Shown here: positions 4,355 through 63,773 of the stretch, piece by piece
Layout: each line of letters opens with the position of its first letter
Position numbering within the stretch: the stretch's first letter is position 1
Assembly: GCA_944472135.2 (NCBI GenBank)
Contig: OX235268.1
Location: 10,360,589 to 10,424,588, forward strand
DNA: 64,000 nt
Direction: 5' to 3'
Source: Trichobilharzia regenti
Taxonomy: Eukaryota; Platyhelminthes; Trematoda; Strigeidida; Schistosomatidae
Position numbers and translations under genes: made by a program
The notes under the pieces: generated by a model
The model's database searches: none
Seen by the model: the letters and a program-made list of their open reading frames with translations, nothing else
Told to the model about the DNA's origin: nothing

Positions 4355-4421
4355 ATGAATTTCTACAAAGAAGCACTATTACTTATCTGCATTGCATGCT
4401 TGATTCATGAGTATGATTGCA
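4355..4421 (+). CDS. MEG copy A exon 1 (signal peptide)
   Basis: Begins MNFYKEALLL, continues with a hydrophobic core ICIACLI and ends HEYDC plus one base, 22 codons in all. The intron donor GTAAGT follows at once, leaving a phase-1 split codon. A basic/polar start and a hydrophobic core rich in Leu, Ile, Ala and Cys are typical of a cleavable secretion signal. The 67 bases differ from copy B at only three positions (a silent Tyr codon change, a silent Cys codon change and the last base). The flanking intron is much more diverged, so this exon is under purifying selection or was recently converted. The ATG is the first after the TATA box. Confidence 0.85.
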
Positions 4422-7400
4422 GTAAGTCGGAAATATTGAATTAAATTATGTTTTACATATTTTATATGACTGAACGGTTGATACAGAACTACTTAAGATT
4501 TATATGCATTTTGAACATAAGGGTGAATAAAACTGTTTTATGTAACTCTGCTAAAGACTGCCACATTTTCAGTTTCAGTGATGAGCTGTACAGATATATT
4601 AATAAAAATATGAAAATGTATTCAGAGGTAGAGAAAATGTCGAATTTCAAAATATAAGACTTTCAGAAACATTGATGATCCTAGTAGATAATGCTAAAAT
4701 ATATTTCGACGTATGAGTAACACACTCAGTTGTTTTTTAAAGTAAAACCGACTGACACTTATGTCTGTATGTTCATAAGTTCAACACAATTGTACTAAAA
4801 TCTCACACTATTTCTTTCGAATAATGTCACTGATGCGAAGATTTTCCCGAATCAACTCAAACACCGATTTGGTTTTGCAAGGCAAATATTTTATTTTTGT
4901 ACATATAACACTATGATAATTAGCAATATTTGTTTTCACTATGAAGTGTGTATTTGTGTGCGTTGGTGGTACAGCGGTTAGGACGCTCGCCGACTATGCA
5001 AATGGTCCGGGGTCCGATTCCCGCCCACAAACGCACTCCTTTACCTCGTTCATCCAGAAATAATGCTGGTAAAGATGAAAGGTTGGGCCTGAGGCCAGCA
5101 TTTCCATCCTGTAAAAGTAATCATTGCTACAGAAACTTCAATCCACTAGCTTCAGGCGCTATGTTACACTGAACGTGAAGGGAAAAAATGAATTGTATAT
5201 TAACATGCAGTATGTTTGCCACTGAATTTCGAGTATTTGTAATTTAGTGCATAATTTCATAGTAGAGTACATATTAGCAGTATTTCATATTATTTCACAT
5301 ATAACAGAATGTTCTTAAAGATGTTACATAATTTAGGATTTTCACAATGCCGAATACCGTCTCATTATATGTAGACGGACTCATGCTCCTAGAAAAAGAA
5401 GACACGGTCAACAATTGACGATTATTTGTATTCGGGAATTATGAGTATTCTATTATCCAGTTTTATTGTATTTGATAAATTTCCCTATTGGCATACTGAG
5501 GTTCAAGCTAGAGCTTAGAAGTTTCGGTAGCAGTGGTATTGATTCCTACAGGATGGTGTTGCTAGTCCCAAGGCCAACTTTTCCTCTTTATCAATCTTAT
5601 TACAAGTTCAGCAAAGTAAGTTATTTCGTCGGTTGAGCATCGAACTCCGGACCATCTGAGTATTCGGTAAGCATTCCATCGCTGAGCTATCAACTCACAA
5701 ATGTTCCGATAAGTCCAAATTGTGTTGGCAATGGAACCTCTGTCACAGTACATGGGGATTTGAGAAACAATTTTCTGATTCTCTTCCCTTTTCAATTTCA
5801 GCCCTTTGTGATTTTAGACACATACCTATTTAAAATCTTAGTGCATGATTTGAACAAAATTATTTCAAAATAAGGTTTAACAGCTATCTGGTTTTCAAAC
5901 TGAGTTGAAATCAGTGTGCTATCTGCGTGTTCACAAGTGGACTTTGTGACTGATGGCAGAAATGGACAAACCATCCACTGACATCTTTCATTAATACTGC
6001 AACATTCGCAAAAGTTCATGCGAACCGTTTGCTTAGCCTAAACGCATAATATTAATGGCCGAAATTTCTTTTAAACATCAAATCTATATCAACAGACTGT
6101 AAGTTTGATCCTGAATTTTGAAAACTTATAATTTAATGTCCAGTTTCACAGTGGAGTACATATTCATAGAATTTCATTTTATTTCATTTATTACAGGATG
6201 TATTCGGAGATTTTATATTATTTAGCATTTCCACAATGTTGAATACCGTCTAATTACATGTAGATAGATTCATGATCCTGCAAATAAAAGGTGCAGTCAC
6301 CAGTTGCAGTTTGCTGTTATTTTAAAGTGGTACTTATATTCACATCCAGTCATTCCTTCCCTGTTAATGTATGCCCTTCTCATAACAAATTCTACCTTAT
6401 GTGAATTGAATTGTCTACTTTTATTACTATAACAAATTACCATATTGTTGATTGACACAACAGATGAATACTACAACATATAATGAATGATTGTATTCTT
6501 CAGTGGACACATCATTAGGTGAATAATATTCATATTAATTGAAATTGCTCATGTTGCGTCTCAAATAGCATTTGGCACATGCGTACACACCATGAATCTA
6601 CTTGAAGCATTTGACAAATTTTTCTATTCCAGAAAGAACAGTTTTGTCTTAGCAGGGATATTTCATGCCTGCAGTGAAAACACTATACTCACGATTATTT
6701 TTTCTGTTCAAATTTATATCAACAGTCAGTAAGTCTATTGTTCAGTAATGTACATCCTCAATTTAATGTTTCACTGAAGAGTACACTAGGGATTTCTAAT
6801 ATTTCACATTATTTCATAGCACATAAGATGCTTTTAGAAATTACAGACGCCCTCAGAACTACTGAATTTTGAATAGTTTCTCACTATCTGCGGAGGCATT
6901 CAGGGCTGAACTGAAAATCTTAGTTTTCAGAACAATGCAATTAGTCCGTTTTCCACTGAAGGCATGTGTATATTCTACTGCAGTTTTGCATTCAGTTCAA
7001 CAATTTTATTTGTCTGTTTTCATTGTACATTATTGTACCTAATATTCTGTTATTTTCATATTTATGTGAATACCCTCTATTTTTCATTTAATCATTCGAT
7101 TTCAAATGTACAGATAGTAAGTATACTGATATTTATTTTACATAATGTAATGTGCAGATTTATTCTATGCGTTCATATCCTGTAATAATTTTAATTATTC
7201 TACAGTTATGATACAATGAAACAACTTCACTTTCTCAATTATCTCGAAGTTCAGGATTAGACTGTCTATGCAGTATGATGTTCCTCACTAAGTCTTTCAT
7301 TTTTAGTTTTACTGATGAAAATGTTCTGGCGTCATAGTATAGTTAATTATCTATTGTATGAGTACTTCATCAGCGCTGAATGGTTCTAAAGTAAATGAAC

Positions 7401-10400: not shown

Positions 10401-13400
10401 AGTAAAAAGATGAAGCGTTGATACTTACAAATAATGTGGACGTAATTTGTAGAAAGGTTTCATGTCAAATAAGCTGTCTTACTTGTACACTTGCTGTTTT
10501 CCCTTGGTAAAGGTGGCATACACAGTTGCAGACATTTTGTAGATTGAAACGAAAAATGGATTTAGTATTCAGACCTTAACCACTGTTTGCTTGGTTTTCA
10601 GCTGTATTCACCTTATATCTCGTCTATCAGCTGGTCATGTTTGACTATAGAATGAATCAAGAGCGATATGATAGGTGAGATACGAGCATTTATAGGAAAC
10701 TGATACATTCTAATAAATACTTGATCTTCACTTCATCCCACTCGAATCGGTAAATATGAAAAAAGACAGTGCATCAGATTGACTAAATGGGAATCAGAGT
10801 AACATTTAAATCAGCAGACGCATCGAGAGACCAACTTTATCGGCCTAAAGACTGGATAGGTCAAATTAGGAAAAATAAAACAGTTTTCCAAATAGCCAGC
10901 CAAGCGAAATTATCCAGAAAACTGTTGTTCACTACAGAGGATTCACTTACATGTGATCGAGAAAAACGGTGGAATTGTTTGAAGTTATAAATAAGGAAAA
11001 AAAGTGTTGGTAAGAGAAGCTAACGAAAACAGAAGAAACGTATTCAAACAATAATCTGTTCTCGGTGTATCCATTTCTTTACCTGTACAAATGAATTTAT
11101 TTACAGTCTTTGAAGGAACAGCTTAGTAACAAAACTGATGCGATGTCATAACCATATATTTTTTGGTGTCTTTTGATGCCCAAGAGTACTCGAATAAGTA
11201 TATTCGAGTTGAATATAGAGGAAGAATAATTCAATACGTTAGTTGTAATCAGGATGTTAACAGGTATAAATAGGATTGTGAAATTACGGAAGAAATGCAG
11301 TACTCATAAAAGAGTCAAAAATACAAACAAAATCAAGTTGGTAGATAACATCGGAGTTGCTTGTGTGACAGCAGAAGTAGTTGGATACTTTTGATTTCAT
11401 ATGCATGTCTTCCATTTCATTGCTGAAGGTCTAGTCAGTCAAAGACTTTACCTTGGGAAATTTTTCCTGAATCAAATAAACGGATAATATTGCCACCATT
11501 TATTGATTTTCCCGGTTTAATTCAATGGTGGAATCTTGACACAGATAATAGACAAGATAGAATAAGCTCACGGGTGATCTCCAATCGCTAAAAAGTATAA
11601 TTATCTTATTTGATCTAATCCACAATGCTCACACTTTTGGATTGAGTTTAGTTTTTGTTAGGTACTACATTTTGCTTGTGATGGAATTCATCTTGAAATC
11701 CTTCAAACGTTCCTACGATCAACTAGGTATTTTAATATCGCCGCTTTCACTTATAAGAAATACTAGATATTTCATTGGAGGATTTTTAACTGTAATCCTC
11801 TGCTTTAATAATTCGACAATTTTACTTCATTTTCGTAAATTTGAAGAGTATACAGATGGTGAGTTTTGCAGAAATACTATGAAACCAATGCTTCATATTT
11901 ACATGAAGTTTCAACCAAACTGCTAAGTCGTTTACAAATAAAAAAAAGTAAAGTTTAGTTTATTAATAATTAATCTGAATTTCAAATGCTGTATGCAGTA
12001 TATCCTGATGACTTTGTCTTCATTAAGTTGGCATTATACAAATAAGGACTGGCGACTAACCAAGTTCACAAGGAGGAGAGCTCACATATGGTCTTACCGC
12101 TGGCATAAATCAGGGTTGCACTTTCATTTGGAACACACTGTCTAATGTAAAGATATTACAGATAACAACCACCAGTATTTCTCTATCTGCAGTTTGAGAC
12201 GTCAAATTCAATTTATTATCTAGAATTTCACCAGAGTTCTCAAAAATAAATAAAAGTGGATCTTACTTCATCAATTTGTTTAATACTGCAAGCGCTATAC
12301 CCCTTCTTTTGAAATAAATAATTGTACTGCAATTCTGATTTACAGATATCTATGGTAGAAGTAAGTATTGTTGAAATAATGCAAAAACTGTGCACTATGA
12401 GAACGAGAATTTTCAGGAAGTCGGTGACTCATTTACGATTTATCACTGAATATGAAATCGTTCCTAACCATTTTATGTTTTAAATGCAGTAGAACACCTT
12501 GACGTCATTAATTTGATTAACCTTGTAGTTAATTAACTAGGCCCAGGTCACATATGGTTCTACTACTGCCATGAACTATGTTGAGCTTCTAATTGAAACA
12601 CATCCTTTACCCATGTTCGGTGTTTCTTGATGATGTTCAATAGTTTCTCTTACAGCATGCATATTGCAGTAAATTTTTGTCGTCATATTCTAATGAATAA
12701 CAAATTAGTTCTAAAGGTGACTTCATTTTGATACTGTTGTTTGCAAATGCTGCTGATAAATCAAATATGGAAAGCAGATAAAAAATTAAATTTTTGTCAC
12801 TATTTTGACCCCGGTTGATTATCAGTTGGTAAGTCCCATTTCCCAAACACAGTTACTGTGAGATTGTGATTTCTGTTAAATGATTTTCGAAAAGCTATAC
12901 AATTAACTATCTTTGGTTTTAGTTCGAAAGTGGTCGTATGGAGTGTAATTCCTGCGACATTTCGTTAGAAATTGGTCTTCGAAATAACTAGATGTCGAAC
13001 TCACTAAACATACCTCTTGTCTTTTATTATTTTCGCTAAATAAGCAGACGTTATATCCATAGATTATCAGTGAATTAAGTATTTTAAATCGCCATTCTAA
13101 GTCCATATATTTTGTGGGCTGAATGTACTGCTTTGATTTTGTTTGCAGTTAGGAATAGAGATATGGAATGTATTTTCTGGCTTATTGAGTTCAACATGAT
13201 TGCAGTTCACCAGGTCTTGTCACCGGTTATGTCAGAAGTGTGCCGATTTAACCTGTTTCTAGGGTGAAAAACAACATATGTTAATATATATATATATTGT
13301 AACGCTAAATAATTTCTTTACAAAATTTGTATGTTGCAAGCACATACTTAACTCTTAAGGCTGAGGCCAGCTAGCTACGCCTTGTTGCATGCAACAGTGT

Positions 13401-16400
13401 TTGTTTGTATAAACTGCGTCCGTTAAACAATTTGAAAATATTTTGAAATAAAAGCTTATGTGGACAGAAATTCAAAGCAAATTGAGAACAATGTTAGTGA
13501 AGAATATGTACTTTTCCTTTGAGTCGCCAATTGTTTTTATTAGTCGTACTGACGCGTCATGCACCAAATGCCTTTTGCTTTATTCATTTCCATTTCTCTC
13601 AGTGAAAATACGTAAGTGTATCTGTCCGACTGTATCACAACACACAGAGATTTCACATTAAAACATAGAAATTAAACTTAAGACGCATAGGTTTTCAGAA
13701 AAGCGTCTGTTCAAGTAACGTTTGCGTAAATTATACGAAAATGTCTCGAATATACCATCTTAAATGAATTAGTGTTCGTGAGGAAACAGAATATGAATGG
13801 TCAACTATTTAGAAAACATTTTCATAAAATCAATATCGAAAGATATTCCTGCACACCCCCTTATTATTCTCTCCAGCTGGCGCTTTGTATGTGGTTCAAA
13901 TTCCAATATGTAATATTCGTGATAGGACTAAATCTTTATTTTAAGAGGCCTTATGCAAATCATTATTGATTACTGCATTATAATTTCGACAACTCATAGA
14001 ATTCAAGGATGGTATGGTATACGACACTAGTTTATCTAAGAAACACGATGTAATGTCAGCAATGTGTGAAACCTATTACTATTTAAAAATTATTAAATTT
14101 TGCCCGAAAAAGTAACTGTTAACTTTAATTTCTTGTCCGCTTTCACAAGTTTTTTTCCCGTCATCCTTTTGTTTCCTTTGCACTACGCAGATGAAAGTAA
14201 TATCAGTAAGTTACATGTAGCTTAAGCAATTAAAAAGTTCTTGATTTACTGGTTTTATCACGAGCTGACATTAGTTGGAGAACTGCGATATCAGTAAGTG
14301 GCGGACAGCAGCTTTTTCTTATTTTAAGATTCTTCCGTGGTGCCCACTTATGGTGTTTCGATCCCAGATCCTCTTCGTTCACTAGGCGAGCTTGTAGACC
14401 GCTTGGCCACTGAGACTAGATCTAGTGGCTGCACTACCGCCTTTTCGCTATGTGAATGGCACAACGTACATCGATAATCATAGCCGACCAACTCCCTTCT
14501 TACATGACATGGTGTACACCACGGGTTACGTTATCACACTAGTACCACAGTTAAATACTCTGTCTCTAGTCGTTAGTGAGCATCGTGCTCGTCTTCAAAT
14601 ATTGTTTTGAAAGGAGGTGCTTGATAACAAGTTCCGTCATAGGCTGATATAAGTTTTTAGACTTAATAACATTTGCAGTGTTACAGTAGAAAATGAAAGA
14701 CTTGCTTTATTTGGAGAACGGTATATCTATATAGCCAAATTATGTACATCACATCTTCAATGCACCATCTATACAGACCGTCATGTCGTCGTGCTTCAGG
14801 CCTTCATATTGTGCTTTTTTCAGATCTGTCATATGTCCTCGTTGCTTGATGCTTTTGTACCAATGAACGTCTGTTTATATACTATCGATAAATCTTCTCA
14901 GTAGCACTTACCACATTAATGCTTCGTGTTTCTTGACATTAGGTTGAGAGAAATTTCCAACAGAGATTCGCATCAATGCTGCGTTCTCTTCCCATTAGAA
15001 AATACTTTTGAGGACCACAAATTCACTATGACATATATTTAGCGATCCTGTTCATATGTGCTTCATCTGAAGCAATGATGTTCGATTTACGGTATAATAT
15101 AAAATAGTTCCACCTAATACGCAAAATTCGCAGTAATCAATGGTAACGCATGATAAAACTTTCAGTAACTTACCGTTTCAACTTATGTTATGAACTGTGC
15201 TTTAAGGTCGCAATTTCACATTATCAAATCAACGGCTGTTCTTAATTACTTACAACTGCCCACCTCTAACGTTTTCCTTACAATCACAACGCGATTGACT
15301 GATGATTCAGTAACTCGACAGAAAGTGAAGTGAAATATAAAATGTAGATTTCTTAATATTGTATTTGTGACTAAATTCTAAATCACTTTTTATTGAAAAT
15401 AAGCCGGTAAGTCCACAAATCTATGACAGCACTTAACACCGACTTAAGCTTTTATGATGTGGTTCATAAGATTACTTTGTAACTCCGAAACCTTTTTCAG
15501 AGTTGAATTCATAAAAGCCTTTATTGTTTTTAAGTTATAAACGGCTAGTGTAGTCCAAAGGAATTAGTTTAATCACATTTTGTTAAACAACACAGTGGTT
15601 TCAACCAAAGCCTTAATCGGCGATTGACTCCTGGAGAGGTATTATATGTGGAAGACTTGCGTTTCATAAATTTAAATAATGTTGTATCTATTACGCCTTC
15701 AGTCACCACCTTACTCACAAGATAACTTGGAAATTCAAAGTGCACTCCAAGTTTTCGAGAGCCTTGATTTAACCTAAAAGTCGTAGTCGTTTTCCTCCTG
15801 TTTTTTTTTGTGATTTTGTTATCAATTGTAATAGTGATTTAATAAAAAAATATGAAGATGTTTCGTGAAGTGAAGTAACAATGAATTACTGCAGGATGTT
15901 AAAATAACAACATGATATAAGATTTTGAAGACTAGTGATAGTGAAATAAGGTAGACAAACTCACAGGTTAGGATGGCACGCCGTCGATCTTATGTGTAAT
16001 AATCTGGTGTAGGTTTGATCTAATCATCCGCATTTCTGACCACCAAGTCAAGTGTAGCAGTAGTAAATGTTAACACTTGCAATACTTTTACACTCATATG
16101 CACACTTATATGTCAGAGTTATTTTCTGTTATGATTAATGTGGGAATCCAGATTGAATTGCCTTAGGTAAAGAATAGTCCTATCGATTAATCACAATAAA
16201 GCAACCAGCAGTTATAATGTATAAAACATTAAAGGATTTAACTGATTTTATCGGTGGAATGGTTCAGTGATCAGCGTTAATTAAAATCTTGTATTTATTT
16301 TCACTAGAAAGAATTTTTAAGTTGAACAAAACTTATATTACTAAAGACAAATATTTACAAAATGTATTCAAAGGGAAACCTATTTCACTGATATTCCTAT

Positions 16401-19400
16401 TTAAACCTTACATTGTACATAATCTCAGGGAATAGACAGGTCATTTGTACTTTATTGATTTAATTATTGGCTCAGTGCGCTTAAGAAGTCCTGTTGCATT
16501 AAGTTTATAATTTCCAACTATTAACTACTAATCAATCAATCCTCTGTCTTTACGAAATAATTTCATTAAAAGAGGAAGTATTAAAAAATAGTGAGTATTT
16601 ATTAACCATACATCATGATGTAATGCTTTGAATAGCTCTAATAACTAAAATTATAAACCCATCCTTGTGTATAGTGTTGTAGTACAGTTATGACGTAAAT
16701 ATAGGCATAAATAAGACGCATGATTTTCGCCTTTCATCCATTGTGCATCTGCTTCAGCCAGCCTGACGCTAAACTTCAAGAATTCACTTAACTTTTTGAC
16801 GCTGGAAGACTTTTAAATTCCAACATAATCTTATAGCATAAAGATTTTATGAGAAACTGACAGTCATGAAATAATCACTAATCTTAGACAAGATTTTCAA
16901 AATATTTAATTTGTATGAATGTCAAAATTAAATTTCATAACAGTGACAATACAGCAATTTGAAATGTTTATTTATCTACATAGTCGTGGATGCTCTACGG
17001 ACATGTAAGTCGTTGTTGATAAAAACTCTGAAAATCTGCTTCATTTCCTAATTTACTTAATAGTTTCATTTCTAAACTTTAGTGAATTCATGAACTGATG
17101 ACTTCCTACCCTTTTGACAATGAGTACTAGGCTAATGATTTTGTACCTTCATAAGTGAACGTGAAAAGTATATTGATTTAAGAACAAAACTTGAGCCATA
17201 TGAAAAAGTATAATTCCATGTGGATAAAATTTATTTTGATAACTTTACACAGTGTTATACATCAATATTTAATAATGAGCTCTTATTTATACGATATCAT
17301 GAGTTCATAACACTGTGTCCTTATTGAAATAACTTGTATCCATTGTGGAGTGAAAAAAATATGTTTTGTTAAACACTTACAATAGTAATCTGGTGAGATT
17401 TTGAATGATGCAGATGCCAAGAGACGATAACAAAGAAAATCATTTAAAATGAAATTATGGATTTTTATATTTTGTTGGTTTTCTTATTTTGTATAAAGGT
17501 GCACGAAATAGTAAGTACAGTTACCAGAACACATCATTCTACATTTAATTTGTGAAAAATTCAGTGATTTCAAGGCTGTTTTTCCCAAAGCAACATCAAA
17601 CAAAACCTAATGTCTTCGTCAGATGCAAATCAAGAAGCGACTTTAACTTCTTGTCACTAAAAAAGTGTGAGTTGAAAATAACTTGCGGTCTAGGAACACC
17701 CTGACTACCAGGTGAGACTCGCCATTGAAATAAGTATCATATCCAATACTGATATACCAAGTGACATACCATGTATATTCATTTTAATTTGTCATACTTC
17801 AATAAACAGTCCTCTTGTGTCGCCCATATTTTATAATTGTGATGATACTGATTGCGATTTTGCCATTACAAATTGTTTTATCCTCCGAAAACTGCGTGGA
17901 TAAGATGTCCAAAGTAAAACTGACTGTCTTGTAGACTTGCATGTTATGAATTTGATGTAGTCATTTACGATGATCAACTACGCAATGATGAGTAAATGCT
18001 ACGAGAACTTGTTAAGCCAATGAAAAGCCAGTGAACAGAAAACATGGATCCTAGTAATGTTTCCTGAAAATTTACCAGCAGAAAGTAAAATACAGCACAC
18101 ATAGATTCACTGATCCACCATTTTCAAAATTACCACCTTTATATGATGTCAATTGTTGGAAATAAAGTTTGTCAGTTATCCATTAAGTGAAACCATAACA
18201 AAATGTCAAAAACCATGTTAACTGTCCTTATTCAAAGCAGTCAAGAGATATATAAATAAATTGATTAGTGGCGACTCTACATTATAAGCACAAATGTAAC
18301 TTGGGTCATTTATGTGGCACTAAACTATTTACAAAACATGAAACGATGAGTTACTTGTAAACTTTTTATTGTTATCATGTAATATAAATCACACATTGGG
18401 TAACTGGTACAACCAGGCAACTTCCAGAATATCTTTTAAATAATTAGGATACTTAGATAATTCGATGTTGATAATTGTATCGCATCACGACTACCTTGAA
18501 CTGAAGGACGTTCTTGGAAATAAAAGTCTTTTTCAAAAGTTGATTTTTTATTTCTCACCGACTAAAACTTCTGAGAAGTGTTTTATTGAATCAATGGATA
18601 CACTCAGTAAACTGAGCTTCTTCTAACAGTATCGTGAATCACGCATTCAATTCCAGTAATTTTTAAAATTAACTTACTATGAAGTGTACCCTAACTTGTA
18701 ATTTGTTTTCTAATCATTTCAGTGTATTCAGATAAATGGTCACTTGGTAAGAACTCAGATTAATATTTCCTGAAACATTTTAGTAATTCATAAGTACTAT
18801 TGTTTCGATATTTGTTCTACTCAATTTCTACACTTAAATGAAAGACTGAATTCTCTTTATCTTAAATGTTATTATTTAGTTAATTTAATTTTCAGAAGCT
18901 TCGAAAGCCACACTTCATATGAATTATGTGTTTCTTGCTCATCACACACAGACGTTCGATTAACCTTACGACAATCTCTTCCACTGTGTATTGACTTTCA
19001 TGCACCTTTGCTGGCTAAATTGTGTTCTCATCTGAAGATACATCACTTAAAATGAAAATGAGAATGTTCGTTTCAGTGTTGTGTAGCTGCATAGACTTCG
19101 AATCAGCTAACGTCTTCAACAGTTTGCAGTGTATGTAGTAACGGGAAAATGAGGACATTAATGAAGGAAAAATAATGTTTTTGTGCAGCTGTTAGAATTT
19201 TATTTTCAAGCTTTTAATTACATAATTTCAGCTCACAATAGCATTCCTCAACTGCTTACTGCTCTATACGGTCATGAAGAATAAAGCGAGTACATTGCAG
19301 ATTTATTAGACATCTAGGAAATATCCAAGAAATTAGGGACAAACCGCATTTCCATGTCCAGTAATAGCATTCCTTTAAGTCAACTTTTGATTGAGTTATA

Positions 19401-35655: not shown

Positions 35656-35660
35656 ATATA

Positions 35661-36306
35661 AGACAACAATCAGCATAAGTGGGAAGAACCTGAAAGAAAC
35701 AACCTCCTTCACCTACCTGGGAAGCATCGTCTCAACTACAGGCGGAACTGACGAAGACATCAAAGCCAGAATCGGATAAGCAAGACAAGCTTTCATTACT
35801 CTCAAATCTGTGTGGAGGTCAACAGCAATCAGCATCAAAAATAAGATACGGATTTTCAACTCTAATGTGAAGTCAGTGATACTATACAGATCAGAGACTT
35901 GGCATGTCATAAACAGCATCTCAAACAAACTTCAGACCTTCATTGACAGCTGTCTCCGCTCAATACTCAAGATCAGATGGCCAGAAAAGATCAGCAACAG
36001 GGATCTCCGGGAGCGAACCAATCAGGAACCGATTGTGAAACAAATAGGCAGAAAGAAATGCAGATGGATTGGACATACGTTGGGGAAACCATCAAGTGAC
36101 ATCACTAGACAAGCCCTCGAGTGGAACGCGAAAGGGAGGCGGCTAGTTGGTCGTCCAAGGGTGACTTGGAGGAGGTCATGCGAGGAGGAGATGAAAGCAT
36201 GTGGACAGACGTGGGGCAGGGTGAAAAAGTTGTCAGAAAACCGAAGGCGATGGAGGTGCGCAGCTGAAGCCCTATGTTACTCTAGGAACTAAAGGATACA
36301 ATAATA
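35661..36306 (+). pseudogene. RTE reverse-transcriptase 3' fragment, sense
   Basis: Same family as 28568-30211, covering its residues from about 339 to the end: TTSFTYLGSIVSTTGGTDED, then a nonsense change (ARIG, stop, ARQAF), then a frame open to RGRPRVTWRR-like motifs and the same terminal RN then TAA. It ends in GGATAC followed by AAT repeats, as in the intact copy. 5'-truncated, lightly mutated. Confidence 0.85.
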
Positions 36307-36330
36307 GTACAATAATAAATAATATAAGAG

Positions 36331-40640: not shown

Positions 40641-40840
40641 GTTGCACAAGAGGTGGCTCTCGTGGCCCAAGTGGTCTATTGGATAACGTTTCGGCGTTTG
40701 AAACTATGGGCACTGGGTTCGAGCCTCAGTGGGAACATCATCACTCACTGAGAAACGCAGGTACATCCAGCTGACGAGTCCCAAATAGGACGAAATGCGC
40801 ATCCTGGATTCCACTGCTAGCCACCATCCACCAATTGATA
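40641..40840 (+). mobile_element. Sm-alpha-type SINE with hammerhead ribozyme
   Basis: The tRNA-related 5' part has A-box-like GTGGCCCAAGTGGTCTATTGG and B box GGTTCGAGCC (40716-40725). A hammerhead core follows, then the tail CACTGCTAGCCACCATCCACC. This order (pol III-like promoter, then hammerhead) is what is known for the Sm-alpha repeats of schistosomes. Strand is plus. Confidence 0.8.
40761..40813 (+). ncRNA. Hammerhead ribozyme, type I-like, complete core
   Basis: CTGACGAG core, stem II GTCC with GGAC around a six-base loop, then GAAA. Stem I is ATCCAG (40765-40770) with CTGGAT (40804-40809). Stem III is short, ATGC against GCAT. The cleavage triplet ATC ends at 40803, so self-cleavage is expected after that C. 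All invariant core bases I can check (CUGANGA, GAAA, UH at the site) are present, so it may be active. Confidence 0.8.
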
Positions 40841-42310: not shown

Positions 42311-42319
42311 AACAGTCAA

Positions 42320-47640: not shown

Positions 47641-47651
47641 CGGTGAGGTTA

Positions 47652-50370: not shown

Positions 50371-50384
50371 GCATTGGTATTAAT

Positions 50385-53643: not shown

Positions 53644-53752
53644 GAACCTCTTATCCTCATCCGAAAGCTATTCTACAAGCGGTACACAGCTTCTGCCAGT
53701 AGACACAGCTCCAGCAGTGAGCACTCCTGTAGATTATACTAATAATTTGTAG
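53644..53752 (+). CDS. Orphan terminal-exon-like block upstream of MEG copy B
   Basis: Acceptor CTGTATACTCTGGATTTTTGCAG. Read with one base completing a codon, the frame gives SSSESYSTSGTQLLPVDTAP, then AVSTPVDYTNNL and TAG at 53750. This Ser/Thr/Pro-rich end resembles the phase-0 reading of the copy-A terminal exon (TPTTPVSSGNSTNAN). No AATAAA follows within about 300 bases. It may be the last exon of a preceding MEG in the array, or a relic; its own first exon was not found between 34.5 and 53.6 kb. Confidence 0.4.
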
Positions 53753-53824
53753 TTGTGGACTTTAACTGTATATCCAAGTAACCGTTTACTTAATAGAACT
53801 TATTACTGTATTTTTTGTAATAGA

Positions 53825-54371
53825 CTGTTACACTATCCTCTCATTAAATTGAATATCCATTGACATACTTGTTATGTTATTGAGCTCGCTGGGCAGTCCC
53901 CTACATACCCTATACTTGTAACAGCTGGACGCACAACTCACCACGCCTTTTAACCCAAAATACCTAGATTAAACCCTTCATGAGGTCTTAGTTGCACACC
54001 CGGAAGAAGTAGATATCTAGCTCTCTATAGTGCTTTTAAGTAATGAAATCTACTATATTTTCACTAGAATGACTACAAATTAGAAATATCCTAATAAATT
54101 CAAGGTTGCCTTTTTGTTGTTTGAAGGTTGTTTTCAAGTTGCTTCACGTGTAAAAGCTTAATATTTTTATCTATCCATCAGCGATAATTATTTTGTGCAT
54201 TTCATTTTATCAAAAACATGACTGTATTTATTTACAGAGAATCGTTGAAGCTGTCACGAGAGGTAGTCAATTCAAAGGGAAAAACATCCTCGAAACCAAT
54301 CACTTTGTTTGTAAACAATAATAATAAAGAGTATATAAGGAAATCTGTTCTTGGTTAAAACTTCAGTCACA
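53825..54371 (+). promoter_or_regulatory. Upstream region and promoter of MEG copy B
   Basis: Paralogous to 3815-4354. CCAAT motif near 54295, TATA box GTATATAAGG at 54331-54340, and a short leader ending CTTCAGTCACA as in copy A. Confidence 0.7.
54331..54340 (+). promoter_or_regulatory. TATA box of MEG copy B
   Basis: GTATATAAGG, identical to copy A and at the same distance from the ATG. Confidence 0.75.
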
Positions 54372-54438
54372 ATGAATTTCTACAAAGAAGCACTATTACT
54401 TATCTGCATTGCATGCTTGATTCATGAGTACGATTGTG
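54372..54438 (+). CDS. MEG copy B exon 1 (signal peptide)
   Basis: Same 22-residue sequence as copy A (MNFYKEALLL, hydrophobic core, HEYDC). Differs only by silent changes in the last Tyr and Cys codons and by the final base (G for A), which changes the first split codon. Donor GTAAGT. Confidence 0.85.
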
Positions 54439-57400
54439 GTAAGTTAAAAATGTTGAATTAAATTATACTTTAATGTGTTTAATATGACGGATCTGTGAAC
54501 TCAGTACTGTTGAGAAGACTTGAATATTTTTACAATCAGGGTGAATACCAATGTTAAAATAGCTTTACTGAGGGCAGCCACATTTCTTTTGTCTGTGTAA
54601 ATCAGTAGAAATATGCCAATAAGATGAGACGGCCTCATCTATATATAATTTCTGAAATAGGAATCCCACCAACACATCAAATATGTATTAGACGACAGAC
54701 TCGAGAAATTTCAGATAAGCAAATCTGTATGATTCATTGTGAGAATCGAAGTCTTTTATGTGAAAAAACATAATTAAGCGTGAAGTTAATCCCTTGCAAT
54801 AAAATCCCTGTGTTAACCGAACGTTAGTCGGTGCGGTACTCGAATGTTTTCAGAAAATAATGAATCGTTCAGTGGCACCTCACACAAAAACTACAACATT
54901 AGGAGAGAATTGTGAATACACACACAGATATTTTATACTTATGCTAAACACATTATACTATTAAACAGTGGTTTTTTTCTAACATCAAATGTATATCAAC
55001 AGGCTGTAAGTTTGCCATTTGTTTTCGACTATTCATAGTACATTGTTACATTTGTCACAAAATTGCATTGGCTGTTAATTACGGTGCTTATTACTGTTTT
55101 CTTTTTTATATTATTTCACGTTTCAAATTTACGTCAATACACTCCGCTAATCATTTCATCATTTGATTTCAAACGTAAATGAACAGCTTGTAAGTATATC
55201 GGTAATATTTTTATACACAACTGATAACTTTGTAATGAAAAACGTAAGTTGAGCGTGGCACTTTCAACAATAATAGTTGCTTCAATGTCGGAATGCAGTT
55301 GGATAACGTCATTTTACTAAACATGCAAGCGCATAGGATGACAATTCTGATGTAATATATTGTTTCTGATCCAGTATACCATTGCGAGCTTTATAGACGA
55401 TAAAGTCGCATTTCTGAAAGTATCTAGGTTGCATAACATACATAATTCATAATCATGTTGATGAACACTTCACCAGAGTTCATGTGCTTCGCAAGGACAT
55501 TGATGGTTAATGCAGACTCGTTGTCTGAACCAGTCATAGCATCATTTTTTCCGAGATATTTTTATATAATTTCGTGCTGTTTGAGTGTGGTTTTTTCTTG
55601 CTCATTTGCAGTAGAAATACAATTTATATGATCCCAATACTTGCACATTTCCGCTGCAATTCATATTTTTTTTTAAAATAAACTTTATGCACGTTTTCGT
55701 CTGGGTCATACTCCCTGAGATCATTTATTATTACAATTTTAGTCAACAGCACGTTTCTTTTGATGATATCACCAAGTCTCCAATACAGGTGTATTCCACT
55801 AATTCGAATAACGTTTCACTTTATCAGAATGTCCCATAGTTTCATACACTGTTTACATCAGCCACTGGTGTTTGGTGGAACTTTCATAGTATAGTAGAGA
55901 ATTGAAAAAACGATTCGTCAATTCTGTCACAAGAAAGTGATATTTCTCATACTTATCATTTTTTAAAGTCACTGTCACAAAAATGAAGATAGATCTTGTA
56001 ATCATACTTATATTCCCATAAGCACAGAAACTCTTCCTTTATCAGGATGTCAGTGTGTCACAGTTTCGATAATTTACATTGTTTCCGAATAAATCGTGTT
56101 GACTATTTACCAGAGTGCGCTATATAGCGTAAACTGTGACATGAAAAACTGGGTAGTAGATGAAACTTACTCCGCTGGTTTTAGAATGTATCCCAGATTA
56201 TTATCACTTGAATGATTTCATAAAATATAACGTTACAGAAATAAAAAGCGCTCATTCCAAAATGAATTTTGTTGTGAGTTTGAGCAAAACGCCTAGATAA
56301 CTTATAATTCACGATCTTTTGTTATAGATGACTGACAAATGAGGACACCGTTGACGCGTATCAGCGCCAAAAGAGTTAACAACAATAGATTGTGACTTGT
56401 GGCTAACTTTTCACCGACTGATTTATTGAGAAGTGCTTCACCTTAGAGGATTTTATATATTCAGAGGAAAGATAAAATTATACAGGTAATAACACTCTGA
56501 AAACTTCTGAATATACTGCAAAAGACCGGCATATATATTTGTTAATTGAACACTAAAAACCTGAACATCAACTGTGTTGTTCACCGTTCGGTATACTCCC
56601 GACAGAGGAAACAATCATATCATGTCTGCCTCAATACTGATATTGTATAAATTTCTATTCTGAATGAAATACCCTTCATGCCAAAGGATTAGTTATAAAC
56701 ACTTATAGGAACATTATTCCACTTGTGTAGCAAAACAGACAGACACACAACCAAAGATCTTTCAACCTGCATGCTTATCATAACATTCGGAAAATAATGC
56801 ATAATTATGACATATTGTAGAAACATTTAAAAAGCCGTTGATTAATGACCATCACATTTACTTAGACAGTATACTTGATGCGCAGAATCATATAAAATAC
56901 ACACATATAGAATTCTATAGCGACCCCATTATCTTTCCAACAGCAGTGTGATAAAACTGTTTAATATTCTTTCACAATTGGTAAAACGTATTCCGATAAA
57001 GTCTCACAATGTTATATGGTAATATTTACTGATGACATTTCGAGAAAAATCTCTTTCTCATAATGATCAATGGAATGGAATTATACTCTGCCACAGTGCA
57101 CAAGCTTTACTTTTATATCAACGTTATTATGCTTCTATTCGAAAACCTGTTAAATGAATAATAGCCCTTAGTGAATTCTGCATTTCATTTCAGCGTGTCA
57201 ATCTTCTACACCCGGTGTTCCAATGAAAGAGGGTAAGCATCTTAAGTAAAGTTGAATGTATTTATAACATGTAATATTCAGCAGGGAAGCCTGGAAACTT
57301 TTGTAGGGAGCACACTCTTAGTGTTTTTCAGTAGGCTGATAATCGTTATCCAGTCATATGGTTTTTGCTTCAATGAGCATAATCATACTCGATGAACAAC

Positions 57401-57613
57401 CGATATTACGTGATTGTGTATTGTGAATAATAATAATAATTCAGTCAACTTTTTCAATGAAAAACAGTATCTAAGACGAAATGCGCACCCTGGTTTCTAC
57501 TGCTAATCACCATCCACCAATTAAAATGAAAACAGTATCATTTGTGAACATTTTGCGGTTTTTTTGACAAATTTCAACTTAACGTGAAAAATTCGTTTTA
57601 CAAACTGCATGAA

Positions 57614-57651
<38 letters not shown>

Positions 57652-60600
57652 AAATGAGAAATTCACCAGTGATCAGCAGTGAATTTTTTGAAATACAAAT
57701 CTTGCACTTTCTTAACACGTTATTTTTAAATCATTTACCGGAAATTTCATTGGAAGGCCTGAAATACGTCTTTTCATATTTGACCATTACCAATTCTGAT
57801 AATTACCAACCTGTTTGAACGGTAGTCAATAAAATAAATAACTTTGTATAGATTGACATGATTGTCACTTGCAAAGGAATTTAAAGTCAATCTAGAAGTC
57901 TAGAAAACTGACCCCCACGGAAAACTCTGAAATGCACACCTTAATAGTAGCGTCGAAACATCGACTTGAATTACTCATTCTTTCATCACGACTGACGTGT
58001 TCTTTGGTAAACACAATAGGATTTCATATTATCCTTCAAATAATGTGAAGGCTTGCAGAACGACACCAGTATTCTACTATATTTAGAATATGTTAGTAGT
58101 GTTTTTGTTCAGATGCATTTAAAGGAAGTTTATAGAGAGTATATTTTTCAAATAAGAACTGGATAGCTCACTAAAGCATGACCGGATATGAACTTCACTC
58201 CGAATTCGGTCAAACTGTATAAAAGTGTCAGATGAGATTTTCCCCCAAAACAGTTAAACAACCAAAAATCATGCTTTTATATCTTCGCTGTTCAGGTGTG
58301 ATCGCTTGATAACAGCCCAGAGAGACACTTCAGAATGCTCAGTACACATCTGAATCCCTGTTGATAAAGGAAACGAAACTGTTGTTATCATGTAAATACG
58401 CATTGTTTGAAATGTAGTATGTAACACCAATATGTCTGCCGACTTTACAAATAAATATGCGGTTAATGATACATGGTTGCAGTAGTTTTTCAAGCCAACC
58501 TTATGAGAAATGCTTGCCTAAATACATCTATAGCAGCAATTAAATTTCCACCAAGTTGCCTTATTACTGGTTCATTATGTGTTAAACATATTGTCAGCCA
58601 ACTTGAGGTTTATAGGAAATAAGACTTTAGGCGATTTTATATATGCCATTTCCCCTATGATACGATTCACTAGTAATTTATCTACTGAACTGCAATCAAA
58701 TATTTCCCTTTCATCAAACCCCTTTGGAAGTGGTATTATGTTTGCAATCGCACGTTTTTATGGCAGTATGTCACCACTAAGTTGTTGGGATGATACAAAT
58801 TCCCTGGTGTAATTCACAGAGATTTTAATTTTAGGAGTTTTCGAAGTTGTCATTTAGCAATGAATATTTTTCTTTCGTTTTTCTGTGACCTTGTTTTTCA
58901 CTGATTACCTTTCATAATGTTTTCACTATATATGTTTAGAATATACGGGTATGTTTCAAAAATTGCGTTTGGTTAACTTGAACTAAGTAATATAGTTTTC
59001 GAAGTTAACCGAAATAAAACCTCTGTGTATTTAGGCTAGCGTGTCAGTTTGTTTGCAAAAATGCATATATAAAATACGCGAGCGTGGTTATATTGACCGT
59101 AAGCCAAATTATTTGTGCCCCCTCATTTCGACATTTAACATGTCGGCAGAAATAACTGCAGAGATTTTATATAATGGACAGAAATAAATCATTGAATCTT
59201 GGTACTATGATTATCGTTACTGTAGTGGATAACTGCATTCACATTATCTGTGCTGTCTCGTCATCAAGATGTTCAAGGCATGTTTTCTAGTGACCGCGAA
59301 AATTCCACAGTGAGTGACTGACGTGAATCTACTCGTTACTGATCCACCATAGTGTCAGGCTTGAGCAGTTTCTATATTGTGTACATTTTTCTTCTCACTA
59401 ACTATACGGGATTCTAACTTAGTCACACCTCGTTTGTTACCATCGCTTTGGAAATGTTTGCACGAACAGTAATCTTTCACCTTGTATTATTTTACCGTGG
59501 TATATATTAAAAATTGATTTTCCATAAATTGCAGGGTAGTGACATATGTGAAGCGACTAACATTCATATGCACAGAAGATGCTAGTTTTAATCTAAACTG
59601 CAGAAAGATTCATTCCTGCTAACATTGTGAAACGAAAACGTATTTCATGTACAGAATCAAGATTCACAGGCCTAGTAACAAAGTTTTATTAGCGTTATCG
59701 TTTATACAGATACCATATTTCTTGATAACGAGATAATTCATGGCTGACTTTCTTCAATACCCTAATGAAGTTTATTGGTATCATTTAACTGTTCAGCACT
59801 GCATCATTTAAATGTTCACTGAGTAAAGCCTACAAGAAGTCATAGTAAATTCTGCCAACACTGGCTATAAATTTTACTTGAAGAGGAAACTATGTCTCGA
59901 ACCAAGTAAAGTTTACCTCTGTGAACAAACACTCCTCTTCTAATCAACGATTTAATTTGAGGCGATTTGCAAACAGTTGTAATTCAAATAAATTTTACGA
60001 TCAACCCTGTAAGAGAAAAAGTTGCTATGCTTGACGAGGCAGGCATTTCTCAGGAATAACTCTTATTTGATTGAAGGATTAAATTAAATAAATACTCTAC
60101 TTACTTCAATCATTATGATTAATGACACGATTATTTTTTTCCAATTTTGTTTCATTTCTGATTTAATAAAGAGATTTTAGACTGTGAGTATGATCCAGAT
60201 ATTGTGAAACTTTCACACCATATTATTATTGCTCCCTTGCGTTCCTAGTGGAACATAGGGCTTTAACTGCACGTCTCCATTTGCTTCTGTCTTCTGCTGT
60301 ACTTTTCACCTGCATCCATGGTAGTCCATACTCTTTCAATTCCTCTTCACACGATCTCCTCCATGTCACCCTTGCACTGACGTCCCACTCGCCGCTTCCC
60401 TATCGGCCTGGTTCCACTCGAGCAATGGCTCGACGCGCGATGACACCCAGTGGTCTCCTCAGCGAGTATCCAATACAACTCCACTTTCTCCTGCATATCT
60501 GTTCAGTGATTGGTCCTTGCTTTGCTTGTTCCCATAATTCCTTGTTGATGATTCTTTTCGGCCATCTGCACTTCAGTATAGATCTAGCGAAGACAGTTGT

Positions 60601-63600
60601 TGATAAGGATCGGCAACAGGCTGTTGGAAATATTTTTTGTTACCCTCCAAGTTTCTGATCCGTACAGAAGAACTGATTTTACGTTTGTATTGAAAATTCA
60701 ACCGAATTTCGTTGTTGATGCTGAGTGACGAAGATTTCCAGATTTATTTCAGGTTGATGAATTTGTTTCTCGCCATTCCCGATTCTCGCTCGATTTGACA
60801 TCCTCGTCCGTTCCAACTGCCTGTATTTGAGACAATGCTCCCTAGATAAGTGAATGAAGTAACCTCTTTCACACCATAAATGCTTGCATTTTTAGCTAAA
60901 TTGTTAAGCTGCTGTTAATCAGTCAACATGAAGTAATTTATTAGTATTCTGACTTTTAAATGTCACAGATAATGACTTCTTTGTTTTTCCTCAAATTTAC
61001 ATTATGCTAATGACCACTTATAGAAGAAGGCGAGATCACGCATAATTCTATCGTTGTAATGTGTTGGGTCCTACTTTGATTTGAAACACAGTGGCTGATG
61101 TAAAGTCATTGTGAATTACACCACCAATATTTCTCTAAATGCATCTTTTGTTGTTAAGGAGAAATTAAATTCTGATATTTCCCCGAAAGACTTTATTAAT
61201 AAATATACTTTGATCTTGCTTTACCAGTTCTGCTTAATACCTCAGGTAAAATCCTACTCATTTTTGCTTTGACAATCCTCTTACGAATTCGGTTTTCAGT
61301 AGACGGTGCTAGAAGTGAGTGCTGTTGGAATAATTTGAAAACTTTGCACCGTAAGCACATGAACTTTCAACAAATGTGCAAGCTAGTTTACGATTTATCA
61401 GTGCGAAATCAAAACACTCGTTAAAATTTCTACTCTGTTATTTATATTACCCGTGTAGTGGATACATGACGGACAATAGGTAGTCGTGTCTATAGTGATA
61501 TTTTTATTTTTCTACCCTCGAGTTCAGAGTGCAAAATAGGTCTTCAGCATTCCATTTTCACTTTGTCTTATTCGATGACTACTGATCGTGATCTCTCATC
61601 TCTTCCTAGCGTGACCTACTCCATGACACTCTTTAAACAAAATCAACTGGTCGTTTCTCAGTCCAGTCCCACTCGAGCAGCAGCCTAGTGCTCGATGTCA
61701 TTCATCAGTGTATCTCTGACTCCTCCACACTTTCCTCTGCATGTTTGCTGAGCGACAGGGTCTTGCTCGGCTTGTTCTAGCAGTCTATTGTCACTACATC
61801 CTGCTGTTTATTTGATCTTCAATATGGAGCAAAAAAGACTGCTGTTCATAAGAGTCTCCAACCTGTCGAAAATGCTTTTCGTGACGTATTGAATTCCACA
61901 TTTATGCTAAAAATCCGAATTATGTTGTTTGTGCCTTATGCAGATGGTGTGACCCACCTTACCGATTCCGCTTTCGATATTTTCATCTGTTCCGCTTATG
62001 GTTGGAACGATGTTTCCAAGATGAAAGCAGGCGTCAGTGTCCACAGTGATATCAGGTTACAAATTAAGTCGACAAATAATAGAAACAGTAACTGAGAGAT
62101 AATGAAGACCTGAACGATGTTTAATTGTTTTTTCCTAAAGTATGCAGATGGCAGTTTTCAGAAACTTTGCAATCTGTGCAAGCTTCCCCATGAAGGGGTT
62201 ATTGTATAGATATCTTTTCAGTCTAAAACTTAAGACAAGAATTATAAAGTTTTTATAGGCGGGGCCTCCTGAATAAGTCCACTTTAATATATCTAATGAG
62301 TAAATTAAAATACCTCATAGTCTAAGAATAAGTAGCTTTAAAATATGTGTCTGATCAAGAAATTGGCAGAACGACTTGTTTATTTCATTACATTATCCAA
62401 ATATCAATAAATTTCACAAAGTAGATTAAAAATCTACATCAATAAACAGTAATTGTTAGATAGATGTTTAACATACACTTCAATCTGTGTTGGCCTGCAT
62501 TTATCTGAATAAGGGAAATTTTCATGCAGAATAATATGGCTTTTTTTCTAAAGGTATTTCCACTATTCTTGCCGATGATTCATTCCTATCCCTTTAATTT
62601 ATTTGTGTTTCACCCAGTAAAAATACGTGAGTGATTCTAATTTCGTTTTCTGTTTATGGTTTTACGTTTCAAATATTACAGCAATACATTTTTGTGAACA
62701 GTAATGTACTCAATTAGGTCTCATTGGGCTAAAATTTGATATACATAGCTTTATAAATAAATATTCAAACACAAACCAATCACGGCGTTTTGTCAGTAGG
62801 ATAACAAAATGGAGCTTATAAATTGTGCAACATTAATGGTTCCATCAATTACAAGGATAAGGAAGCAAGGCGGTCTTTGATAACAAGAATAATGAGAAGC
62901 AGCATGATTAAACAAAAACAAATATTCAGGTAGAAGTGGCCGATAAACTGAAATAAATAAATACTATTTCGTAGGCAGTCTAGTATTACTTAATCGGCCC
63001 ATTTGCAGTTCTTAGCCTTCTTCGACTAATTCTGCCTGAACATTTGTATATTTCATCACACAGTTTTTTGTTATTCTTGTTATCATAAATAGCTCCACTT
63101 CTCATCTTTGTTACTGACAGAATCATTATTATTACAATTATCATTATTATCATGATTAATTGTACAATTTATATGCACGATTTTATTATCCTACTGACAA
63201 AACACCATGATGGGTTTGTGTTTCAATATTTATTTGTAAAGTTATGTATATTAGAGTTAAGCCTGATGCGATATAATTGGAAACATTATTGATCGCTTAA
63301 ATGTGTGTTTCTAAATTTCATAATGAGAATGTTTAATATTTTCAATTATTGGTACAAATTTCTCTTTTTTTCCGTCTCATATATCTGCTACGTGAATAGT
63401 TTATTTATTTTGGCTTTACCAATGTACATTTGACAAACATGGATTTTCAAAATATCATTCTTTGTGATTGTCTGAGCGTTATTTCGACCACTGAGTCGTA
63501 GATGTCAGCAAAATGTCAACTGTAGAAAAATGTACAAATCCTATCCCGAAAGGGGGAGAAATTAAAGATGGAATAATTTATCAAAAAAGTAGATTACCTG

Positions 63601-63773
63601 CAGCGTCTACTCGACTTATGCGGAAATGCTACATTGTGAGCATCATGTTTAAAATTCGATACTATTTATTATTTGTAAATTTCATCTTCCACGTCATAGT
63701 AGCCTCTGCTTTCATAAATTCAATCCGCATATTCTTTTATTATTTTCGAACTACACAGGTACTGATACTATTA
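54372..63773 (+). CDS. Micro-exon gene copy B, 5' part (runs off the window)
   Basis: Tandem paralogue of copy A. Exons supported here: 54372-54438 (67 nt, signal peptide), 57194-57232 (39), 60172-60183 (12), 61300-61314 (15), 62618-62626 (9) and 63759-63773 (15), plus possible 3-nt exons at 55003 and 55197. All internal exons are symmetric, phase 1. The chained frame is open and begins, after the signal peptide, Cys-Ala-Cys-Gln-Ser-Ser-Thr-Pro. The last four exons match copy A in order and length. RTE fragments sit in the introns after the 12-nt and the 15-nt exons and have no equivalent in copy A, so they arrived after the duplication. The 3' end lies beyond 64000. Confidence 0.65.
55003..55005 (+). 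CDS. Candidate 3-nt micro-exon GCT (copy B)
   Basis: TATATCAACAG, GCT, GTAAGTTT: the counterpart of 6096 and 6726 in copy A. The next upstream AG would give 37 nt, which is not symmetric. Confidence 0.35.
55197..55199 (+). CDS. Candidate 3-nt micro-exon CTT (copy B)
   Basis: AATGAACAG, CTT, GTAAGTATA: the counterpart of 7114 in copy A. No other AG lies in the preceding 100 bases or so. Confidence 0.35.
55210..57190. other. Intron of copy B, nothing recognised
   Basis: AT-rich, with no element and no convincing exon. Confidence 0.5.
57194..57232 (+). CDS. 39-nt exon (copy B)
   Basis: Strong acceptor (TTCTGCATTTCATTTCAG) and donor GTAAGC. Phase 1 encodes CQSSTPGVPMKE with split codons at both ends. 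It joins directly to the signal-peptide exon in frame. No equivalent was found in copy A between 7.2 and 11.8 kb. Confidence 0.7.
57471..57523 (+). mobile_element. 3' fragment of the hammerhead SINE
   Basis: Starts inside the ribozyme (AAGACGAAATGCGCACCCTGG) and continues with the same tail CCACCATCCACC-like sequence as 40791-40835. The 5' half, including the CTGANGA core, is missing, so it cannot cleave. Confidence 0.65.
57610..57650. repeat. TA microsatellite
   Basis: Run of about 12 AT units broken by one G, in an intron of copy B. Confidence 0.8.
57830..60160. other. Intron of copy B, nothing recognised
   Basis: No element, SINE head or micro-exon with good signals. The GTAAG sites at about 59091 and 60009 have no in-frame acceptor nearby. 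Confidence 0.45.
60172..60183 (+). CDS. 12-nt micro-exon (copy B), paired with copy A
   Basis: AGATTTTAGACT after a long pyrimidine tract (CCAATTTTGTTTCATTTCTG), acceptor AAAG, donor GTGAGT. Phase 1 reads xAG ATT TTA GAC T. As in copy A, an internal TAG leaves a 3-nt alternative (ACT). Confidence 0.6.
60222..60890 (-). pseudogene. Diverged RTE fragment, antisense
   Basis: Begins with an ATT tract and then, on the minus strand, the element's C-terminal region (the plus strand has GTTCCTAGTGGAACATAGGG, as at 28573). It continues through the WNP, WIGH, RWP and IGKARQ-equivalent regions with frameshifts and stops, ending near the YLGS region around 60860. More diverged than the copies at 28.5 and 35.7 kb. 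Confidence 0.75.
61300..61314 (+). CDS. 15-nt micro-exon (copy B), paired with copy A
   Basis: TAGACGGTGCTAGAA, acceptor TTCGGTTTTCAG, donor GTGAGT. Phase 1 reads xTA GAC GGT GCT AGA A (Asp-Gly-Ala-Arg). Confidence 0.75.
61505..62060 (-). pseudogene. Old RTE fragment, antisense
   Basis: Shares the plus-strand order of landmarks with 60222-60890 (GCGTGACCTACTCCATGACA, CCCACTCGAGCAG, TTGATCTTCAATAT, ATGCTAAAAATCCGAATT, then a TTTCGATATTTTCATCTGTTCC-like region) but is heavily mutated. It separates the 15-nt and 9-nt exons of copy B. Confidence 0.6.
62618..62626 (+). CDS. 9-nt micro-exon (copy B), paired with copy A
   Basis: TAAAAATAC after TTTATTTGTGTTTCACCCAG, before GTGAGTG. Phase 1 reads xTA AAA ATA C (Lys-Ile), one base different from copy A. 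Confidence 0.8.
62640..63740. other. Intron of copy B
   Basis: AT-rich, with a long inverted similarity: TTTGATATACATAGCTTTAT and CAATCACGGCGTTTTGTC near 62735-62800 recur in reverse complement near 63180-63250. No exon recognised. Confidence 0.5.
63759..63773 (+). CDS. 15-nt micro-exon (copy B), paired with copy A
   Basis: GTACTGATACTATTA, acceptor TTTCGAACTACACAG, donor GTGAGT. Phase 1 reads xGT ACT GAT ACT ATT A (Thr-Asp-Thr-Ile), against Glu-Ser-Asn-Ile in copy A. Confidence 0.7.

Follow-up and report, generated by a model that had tools for sequence, protein, structure and literature searches.

The splicing of micro-exon genes (MEGs) was reportedly first described by DeMarco in 2010. 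In the available text of two accounts of schistosome MEG families (PMC10526429, PMC5825161), these genes possess a signal-peptide exon, a coding region made up for the most part of short symmetric exons that permit frame-neutral skipping, long introns, an arrangement in clusters and a secreted product. Micro-exons measure 6-81 bp in the text of the review, with 15 bp the commonest size, and 3-81 in its abstract (PMC10526429). For Schistosoma MEGs, symmetric micro-exons, expansion and an accelerated mature region with a high ratio of nonsynonymous to synonymous substitution (dN/dS) are already published. The accessible part of Philippsen et al., on orthologues of S. mansoni and S. haematobium, reports a conserved signal peptide and a faster mature part, and proposes host immunity as the driver of MEG change (PMC4350168). 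MEGs of a bird schistosome are likewise in print, as counterparts of MEG-4, MEG-8 and MEG-9 in Trichobilharzia regenti (PMC5825161). The stretch analysed here, hereafter the window, comprises 64,000 nucleotides of contig OX235268.1 (assembly GCA_944472135.2, deposited under T. regenti). It contains two tandem genes, A (ATG at 4355) and B (ATG at 54372), which, as read from genomic sequence alone, very probably belong to a MEG family of a schistosomatid fluke in which selection fixes the splice frame and diversifies the peptides. Coordinates refer to the window unless preceded by C7, the contig holding it (window = C7:10360589-10424588); the genome searched comprises 954 Mb in 548 contigs and exceeds Schistosoma genomes (about 0.4 Gb) in size.

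The locus shares its anatomy with the described MEGs. A hydrophobic exon of 22 amino acids, judged signal-peptide-like from its sequence, forms the N-terminus on its own, and most of the coding region lies in very short exons divisible by three (19 of 3-21 nt in A and in a paralogue C upstream of the window). The symmetric phase 1, suited to in-frame skipping, is stop-free in A, B, C and two further copies, E and F. Introns of A span ~0.4-4.7 kb before the last micro-exon and ~23 kb before the terminal exon, and a schistosomatid origin is indicated by one reverse transcriptase of a long interspersed nuclear element (LINE). The family differs from schistosome MEGs in 30 matches to its exon-1 block, in genes of ~50 kb if the terminal exon belongs to them, and in runs of 3-nt candidate exons. 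It could not be linked to a numbered MEG family in length-limited protein searches made without reference MEG sequences. The MEG-4, MEG-8 and MEG-9 counterparts of T. regenti, recognised by conserved C-terminal motifs (PMC5825161), are set beside it by description only. A conserved signal peptide, an accelerated mature region and recent species-specific duplication are shared with the MEGs of PMC4350168, which in its accessible part compares orthologous coding sequences, whereas the present comparison is between tandem paralogues and sets each exon against the introns of the same genes. Extreme exon shortness is also known from 3-30-bp microexons (PMC9929638) and from a single-nucleotide exon of Arabidopsis (PMC4674806), as far as these sources are accessible; in contrast to those exons, up to five 3-nt candidates occur here in one gene, known from sequence alone. 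No report of this family was found in titles and abstract openings on Trichobilharzia MEGs in the open-licence literature. The gene type is known, and its pattern is unusually legible in this family. New are the family itself, the exon-by-exon contrast with introns, the series of 3-nt candidates and the correction of a supposed length lock into a frame lock.

Tandem copies and their micro-exon series

Genes A and B, both on the forward strand, share an upstream block and a signal-peptide-like exon of 22 amino acids, followed by tiny exons in collinear order. The upstream block of A (4260..4354) recurs in B (54276..54371) and in other copies, and is a candidate promoter. Exon 1 of A (4355..4421) consists of 22 codons plus one nucleotide, giving phase 1, and ends at the donor gtaagt; exon 1 of B (54372..54438) encodes the same 22 amino acids with 2/66 bases changed, compared with 46/300 bases differing upstream of the ATG. 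The first-pass annotation of this DNA had claimed one promoter and signal-peptide exon for both genes, which stands for block and exon, promoter activity being a candidate property only. Among A, B, C and a further copy D, exon 1 differs at 2-4/66 bases, the 300 bases upstream at 9-20% and intron 1 at 17-31%. All 20 copies fetched (of the 30 matches) have the 22-amino-acid frame open up to a GT donor. Among solved structures, no sequence match to the exon-1 peptide was found.

Gene A possesses 19 candidate micro-exons (m1-m19) of 3-21 nt, every length a multiple of three. C has counterparts of all 19 with equal length, and B of at least 14 with equal length and order, its partners having been picked in part for equal length; the last B exon starts at 82581, well past the end of the window. 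Five of the A candidates (m1-m4 and m6) comprise three nucleotides and are treated below. The hypervariable exons m5 (12346..12360) and m8 (14191..14205) measure 15 nt in A, B, C, E and F, m5 with five different sequences, and between them lies the conserved 9-nt m7 (13603..13611). They are followed by m9 (16984..17004; 21 nt in A, its near-copy A', B, C, E and F), m10 (17499..17510, with AAG acceptor; 12 nt in A, B, C and E, 9 nt in F) and m11 (18732..18746; 15 nt in A, B, C and F, 14 nt in E), which would lengthen to 24 nt if spliced at an in-frame acceptor at 18723. Further downstream, m12 (19795..19815, 21 nt) is conserved between A and C, and m13 (20783..20794) has 12 nt in A, B, C, E and F. 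The series ends with m14 (22860..22868) and m15 (24275..24283) of 9 nt each, m16 (24706..24711, 6 nt), the 6-nt candidate m17 (25157..25162; AAG acceptor in C, missed by automatic scan), m18 (26374..26388, 15 nt) and the 6-nt candidate m19 (30522..30527). In B, m5 (61300..61314, 15 nt), m7 (62618..62626, 9 nt) and m8 (63759..63773, 15 nt) lie inside the window; the series continues beyond it, m9-m16 and m18 starting at window coordinates 65697-82581. Direct reading and scan thus confirm the tandem paralogues proposed in the first-pass annotation, with a series longer than the four pairs (12, 15, 9 and 15 nt) listed there. The 15-, 9- and 15-nt pairs (12346/61300, 13603/62618, 14191/63759) stand, the 9-nt exon of A having been placed ten bases off at 13613, and the 12-nt pair is doubtful.

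The scan of A, a simple search for acceptors and donors with lengths divisible by three and phase 1 free of stops, gave 25 raw candidates on the forward strand versus 12 on the reverse strand. The exons m1-m19 comprise 18 of these 25 plus m4, which stems from the first pair of the first-pass annotation; m11 was taken to start at 18732, in agreement with B and C, and not at the scanned 18723. Left out were exon 1 itself, 26052, the longer alternatives with a shared donor at 6675 and 19759, the candidates 9368 and 29508, which have no counterpart in C, and 40325, a repeat occurring in several units. The extension scan of B gave 26 candidates, with six on the reverse strand, and yielded 12 of the 14 matched B exons, m4 and m10 being added from motif and alignment; 61246 and 68353 were set aside as alternatives of matched exons. 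B candidates at 57194, 69510, 72435, 74984, 76252, 78519, 83527, 88614/88650 and 93228 found no partner. The first of them, a 39-nt candidate exon (57194..57232), is known from splice-site scan and comparison only and is without match in A or C. Seven of these candidates (all but 74984 and 88614/88650) and the site 55003 scored -3.0 to 21.5 against 14 C exons, under the off-diagonal maximum of 29.5. The A exons m1, m2, m6, m17 and m19 are counted as unmatched in B, though 55003 aligns with m1.

A separate scan of the A-C alignment for conserved acceptor/donor pairs of any length found 31 on the forward strand (22 divisible by three), some overlapping or in repeats, versus 3 on the reverse strand. 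It recovered 17 of the 19 micro-exons and paired m1 with a neighbouring C site. When flanks without exon or splice bases were compared, the true partner ranked first among 14 in 11/14 exons for A-B and 8/14 for C-B, so that most pairs are homologous by descent and not chance look-alikes. The flank homology of m4 is among the weakest (A-B z 1.6, rank 3/14; C-B z -0.4, rank 8/14). In E and F the comparison covers m5, m7-m11 and m13 (7/19 exons); m12, m14-m19 and the 3-nt exons were not obtained.

The cluster comprises the copies D, C, A', B', A and B, all on the forward strand, followed by E and F on the reverse strand. Genome-wide, the upstream and exon-1 block (4260-4460) has 30 matches, including the two of the window and some partial ones: eight strong matches at C7:10.19-10.60 Mb, eight at C7:0.99-1.65 Mb, five at C7:11.0-11.4 Mb and nine elsewhere. 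A is 97.5% identical to A' over 50 kb and 81% identical to C over 32 collinear kb; between A and B, alignment is confined to patches and to the surroundings of the upstream block and exon 1. Gene D (C7:10190636) has the exon-1 donor gtaatt and no m5-m18 block in the scan, and is perhaps a truncated or decaying copy; having early 3-nt sites only, it was dropped as a rate comparator. In gene E (C7:10481901-10483774) the intron stretch between m9 and m10, which holds a dispersed repeat, matches twice. Together with its 14-nt m11, this means that E may be decaying or may skip m11.

Substitution, reading frame and length

Between A and C the micro-exons differ at 61/186 bases (0.33), their 20-base ungapped flanks on both sides at 149/760 (0.20) and the splice sites at 4/171 (0.02); the aligned introns have a substitution rate of 0.159 (15.9%) over 17,872 columns. 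Intron windows of the same sizes, resampled at splice-site-like anchors in 20,000 draws, gave a mean of 25.9 +/- 5.5 differences and a maximum of 51 versus the 61 observed. The proportion of nonsynonymous differences (pN) is 0.42 and that of synonymous differences (pS) 0.15 (43 codons). The excess is uneven, high in m5, m9, m10, m11, m15 and m19 (10/15 bases changed in m11, 6/6 in m19) and low in m7, m12, m14 and the early 3-nt exons. With 1/21 bases changed in m12 and 1/9 in m7, some micro-exons are conserved, and the description of the exons as sequence-free has to be withdrawn. Gapped flanks favour the claim of faster exons and ungapped flanks disfavour it; the A-C excess survives both. Among A, B, C, E and F, compared over seven exons and without those of unequal length, the exons are more divergent than their gapped flanks in 10/10 non-independent pairs, pN exceeds pS in 8/10, and splice sites differ at 0-5/63 bases.

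In phase 1, stops number 0/43 in C, 0/26 in E and 0/25 in F, compared with 11/100, 5/58 and 5/57 in the other two frames together. These counts leave out the 3-nt exons, which hold no full codon; A and most B exons were pre-filtered for stops, and the placements in C, E and F come from alignment. The exon excess over introns, the near-fixed splice sites of A-C and the stop-free phase-1 frame together indicate that peptides diversify inside fixed splice signals, and the earlier proposal of symmetric phase-1 exons with changing peptides is supported by the frame and the A-C rates. In A, exon 1 and m1-m19 allow 190 possible junctions, none of which creates a stop codon, because no A micro-exon starts with AA, AG or GA (chance ~0.01 under background dinucleotides).

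Length conservation alone is non-significant for A-C, since a set of 19 size-matched windows drawn at random from introns would come through without any length change with a probability of 0.23. With respect to B, ~19 indels were expected in 165 exon bases and none was seen (P about 6e-9); of multiples of three 3.9 were expected and none seen (P 0.02), figures that come from over-gapped alignments with partners partly picked for equal length and 5/19 exons unmatched. Among the seven exons read in E and F, m10 of F measures 9 nt in place of 12, and m11 of E 14 nt in place of 15. This pattern is read here as frame-locking, with length following: the first-pass claim of length-locked exons holds for the frame, and not for length beyond it.

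Three-nucleotide candidates, terminal exon and other elements

The pattern CAG-NNN-GTAAGT (CAGNNNGTAAGT) occurs six times in the window, always on the forward strand and within A and B, versus 0.37 expected. A relaxed pattern gives 8 versus 1.54 expected and adds exactly the two sites of the 12-nt pair 11847/60172. Within ~1.5 kb 3' of exon 1, the 20 fetched copies contain a similar motif 13 times on the forward and 3 times on the reverse strand. As true exons, these sites are candidates and the least secure part of the family. The first, m1 (ACT, 6096..6098), reads CAG-ACT-GTAAGT, with splice sites that align in C, D and B, where the candidate GCT (55003..55005) lines up with m1 as well as with a GCA site in C and D. 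The second, m2 (TCA, 6726..6728), is kept in C and D, and m3 (ATA, 7114..7116) in C, D (ATG) and B (CTT, 55187..55189). The splice sites of m4 (ATG, 11856..11858, read as CAG-ATG-GTGAGT) and m6 (TTG, 12826..12828) are kept in C, the latter enclosing CTG. The B counterpart of m4 is ACT (60181..60183). For m4, the 12-nt exons proposed earlier, from 11847 in A and 60172 in B with the same donors, are readable behind AAG acceptors, but 3 nt behind CAG or TAG read at least as well. A dispersed repeat at 4958-5188 (also near 27272-27503 and 65283-65513) starts where homology to D stops; its start directly precedes the GCA candidate kept in C and D, which A seems to have lost. A direct repeat of 73% identity (5184-5432 and 6073-6321) holds m1 in its second copy, which suggests that 3-nt exons may have spread by local duplication.

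A candidate terminal exon of A (53644..53752) lies behind gatttttgcag. Its phase-1-compatible frame stops at 53700-53702 (18 amino acids) and another frame runs to 53752 (35 amino acids); both are open in every copy, and the 35-amino-acid reading was given up as undecided. The fetched cluster contains four copies of the candidate, which fall into two sequence types and lie upstream of exon 1 in D, C, B' and B. As no exon was accepted between m19 and 53644, the last intron would be ~23 kb long.

The introns of A contain a LINE whose reverse-transcriptase reading frame (RVT_1, 28568-30214, reverse strand) spans 548 amino acids between two stops; a second copy at 35661-36316 is partial. Among the named sequences in the best 120 of 2948 matches, the highest identity is that of Trichobilharzia szidati (93%, covering 61% of the query), ahead of Heterobilharzia americana (79%, covering 86%); the genome is accordingly read as that of a schistosomatid, probably Trichobilharzia. 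A type I hammerhead ribozyme (40765-40809, forward strand, Rfam RF00163, 69 bits) overlaps the segment 40786-40836, which has a further match in B at 57472-57522. ARAGORN found no tRNA.

Alternative readings and implications

Several observations weigh against selection for a fixed frame and diverse peptides. The A-C excess is concentrated, own flanks being exceeded in 11/19 exons, and A-A' lacks an exon excess (5/186 in a by-eye count versus ~2.5% overall). The A-B comparison, which the first-pass annotation had proposed as a check, gives equal exon and ungapped-flank divergence (0.491 and 0.489); C-B, with 0.539 in exons versus 0.459 in flanks (P 0.08), is suggestive only, and pN does not exceed pS in A-F and E-B. 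The 14-nt m11 of E breaks the frame. Junction stops are possible in C (2/190) and B (6/105); in addition, the leading GA of the terminal exon would give TGA in phase 1 after the 5/19 A exons that end in T. Free skipping is thus not fully safe. Within the fetched cluster, no terminal exon was found at the 3' end of either C or B'. Neither the exon-1 nor the terminal-exon reading frame had a match in length-limited protein searches, numbered families from MEG-1 to MEG-32 included. Lengths might have been kept by descent alone, the exons being too short for indels, with peptides drifting neutrally after function loss under relaxed selection in decaying paralogues. The probability of 0.23 for retention of all 19 A-C lengths under the intron null fits this, as does the damaged appearance of D and E. 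Drift, however, should not outpace introns as the A-C exons do, and splice sites are nearly fixed around a frame that is stop-free in C, E and F, which makes neutral decay very unlikely.

Copy number is a separate matter, and it comes not far short of an even chance that part of it is an assembly effect, A' and B' being an alternative haplotype scaffolded in tandem and not paralogues. Over 4,075 bases B' and B are 99.9% identical, and this identity stops exactly at a gap of 500 N at C7:10335830, hence the suspicion of a haplotype copy; beyond the gap, outside the window, the sequence is ~97% like the 3' part of C, and the scaffold may join a haplotype copy there. The ~2.5% difference between A and A' over 50 kb argues against it, and A, B, C, E and F are untouched, the window containing zero N and near-exon differences amounting to 16-31%. 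The 3-nt sites, in turn, might be intronic splice-like elements, ratchets or decoys that aid removal of long introns, or else the end portions of longer exons whose acceptors lie further upstream. The spliceosome handles very small exons poorly, and open longer alternatives exist at two places, 54 nt for m2 in A and C (in A from 6675) and 39 nt for the first site in C and D. Against this stand the forward-strand enrichment of CAG and GTAAGT three bases apart and the preservation of that spacing in C, D and B; recursive-splice sites are expected as AG followed directly by GT. On balance, such non-exonic roles are unlikely, though to be reckoned with.

Under the favoured reading of a fixed splice frame with diversifying peptides, A- and C-type genes would be expressed and spliced into a small secreted protein. 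Its coding sequence would open with the conserved signal-peptide exon, go on through as many as 19 micro-exons of 3-21 nt, each frame-neutral and set apart by long introns, and close with a short terminal exon. Purifying selection would maintain splice signals, phase and signal peptide, and diversifying selection would alter the peptide in many micro-exons faster than intron DNA. As all micro-exons are symmetric in phase 1, omitting any of them keeps the frame, and alternative inclusion could multiply the variants. Host immunity may be the selecting agent; the intramammalian stage named in the first-pass annotation was an assumption, and the organism is probably a bird schistosome. A bolder and rather unlikely idea is a splicing dial, in which serial 3-nt exons would toggle single residues ahead of a micro-exon cassette whose contents are swapped wholesale within fixed splice frames. 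If true, the micro-exon would be a unit of combinatorial splicing and of adaptive replacement across dozens of genes.

Why MEGs, an odd route to variable secreted proteins, are built in this way is still unclear. Tandem copies with still-alignable introns give each micro-exon its own yardstick of neutral change, and the 3-nt candidates provide material for testing the lower limit of exon recognition. Comparison of A with C shows directly that exons of 6-21 nt are where the change gathers, with the splice frame held.

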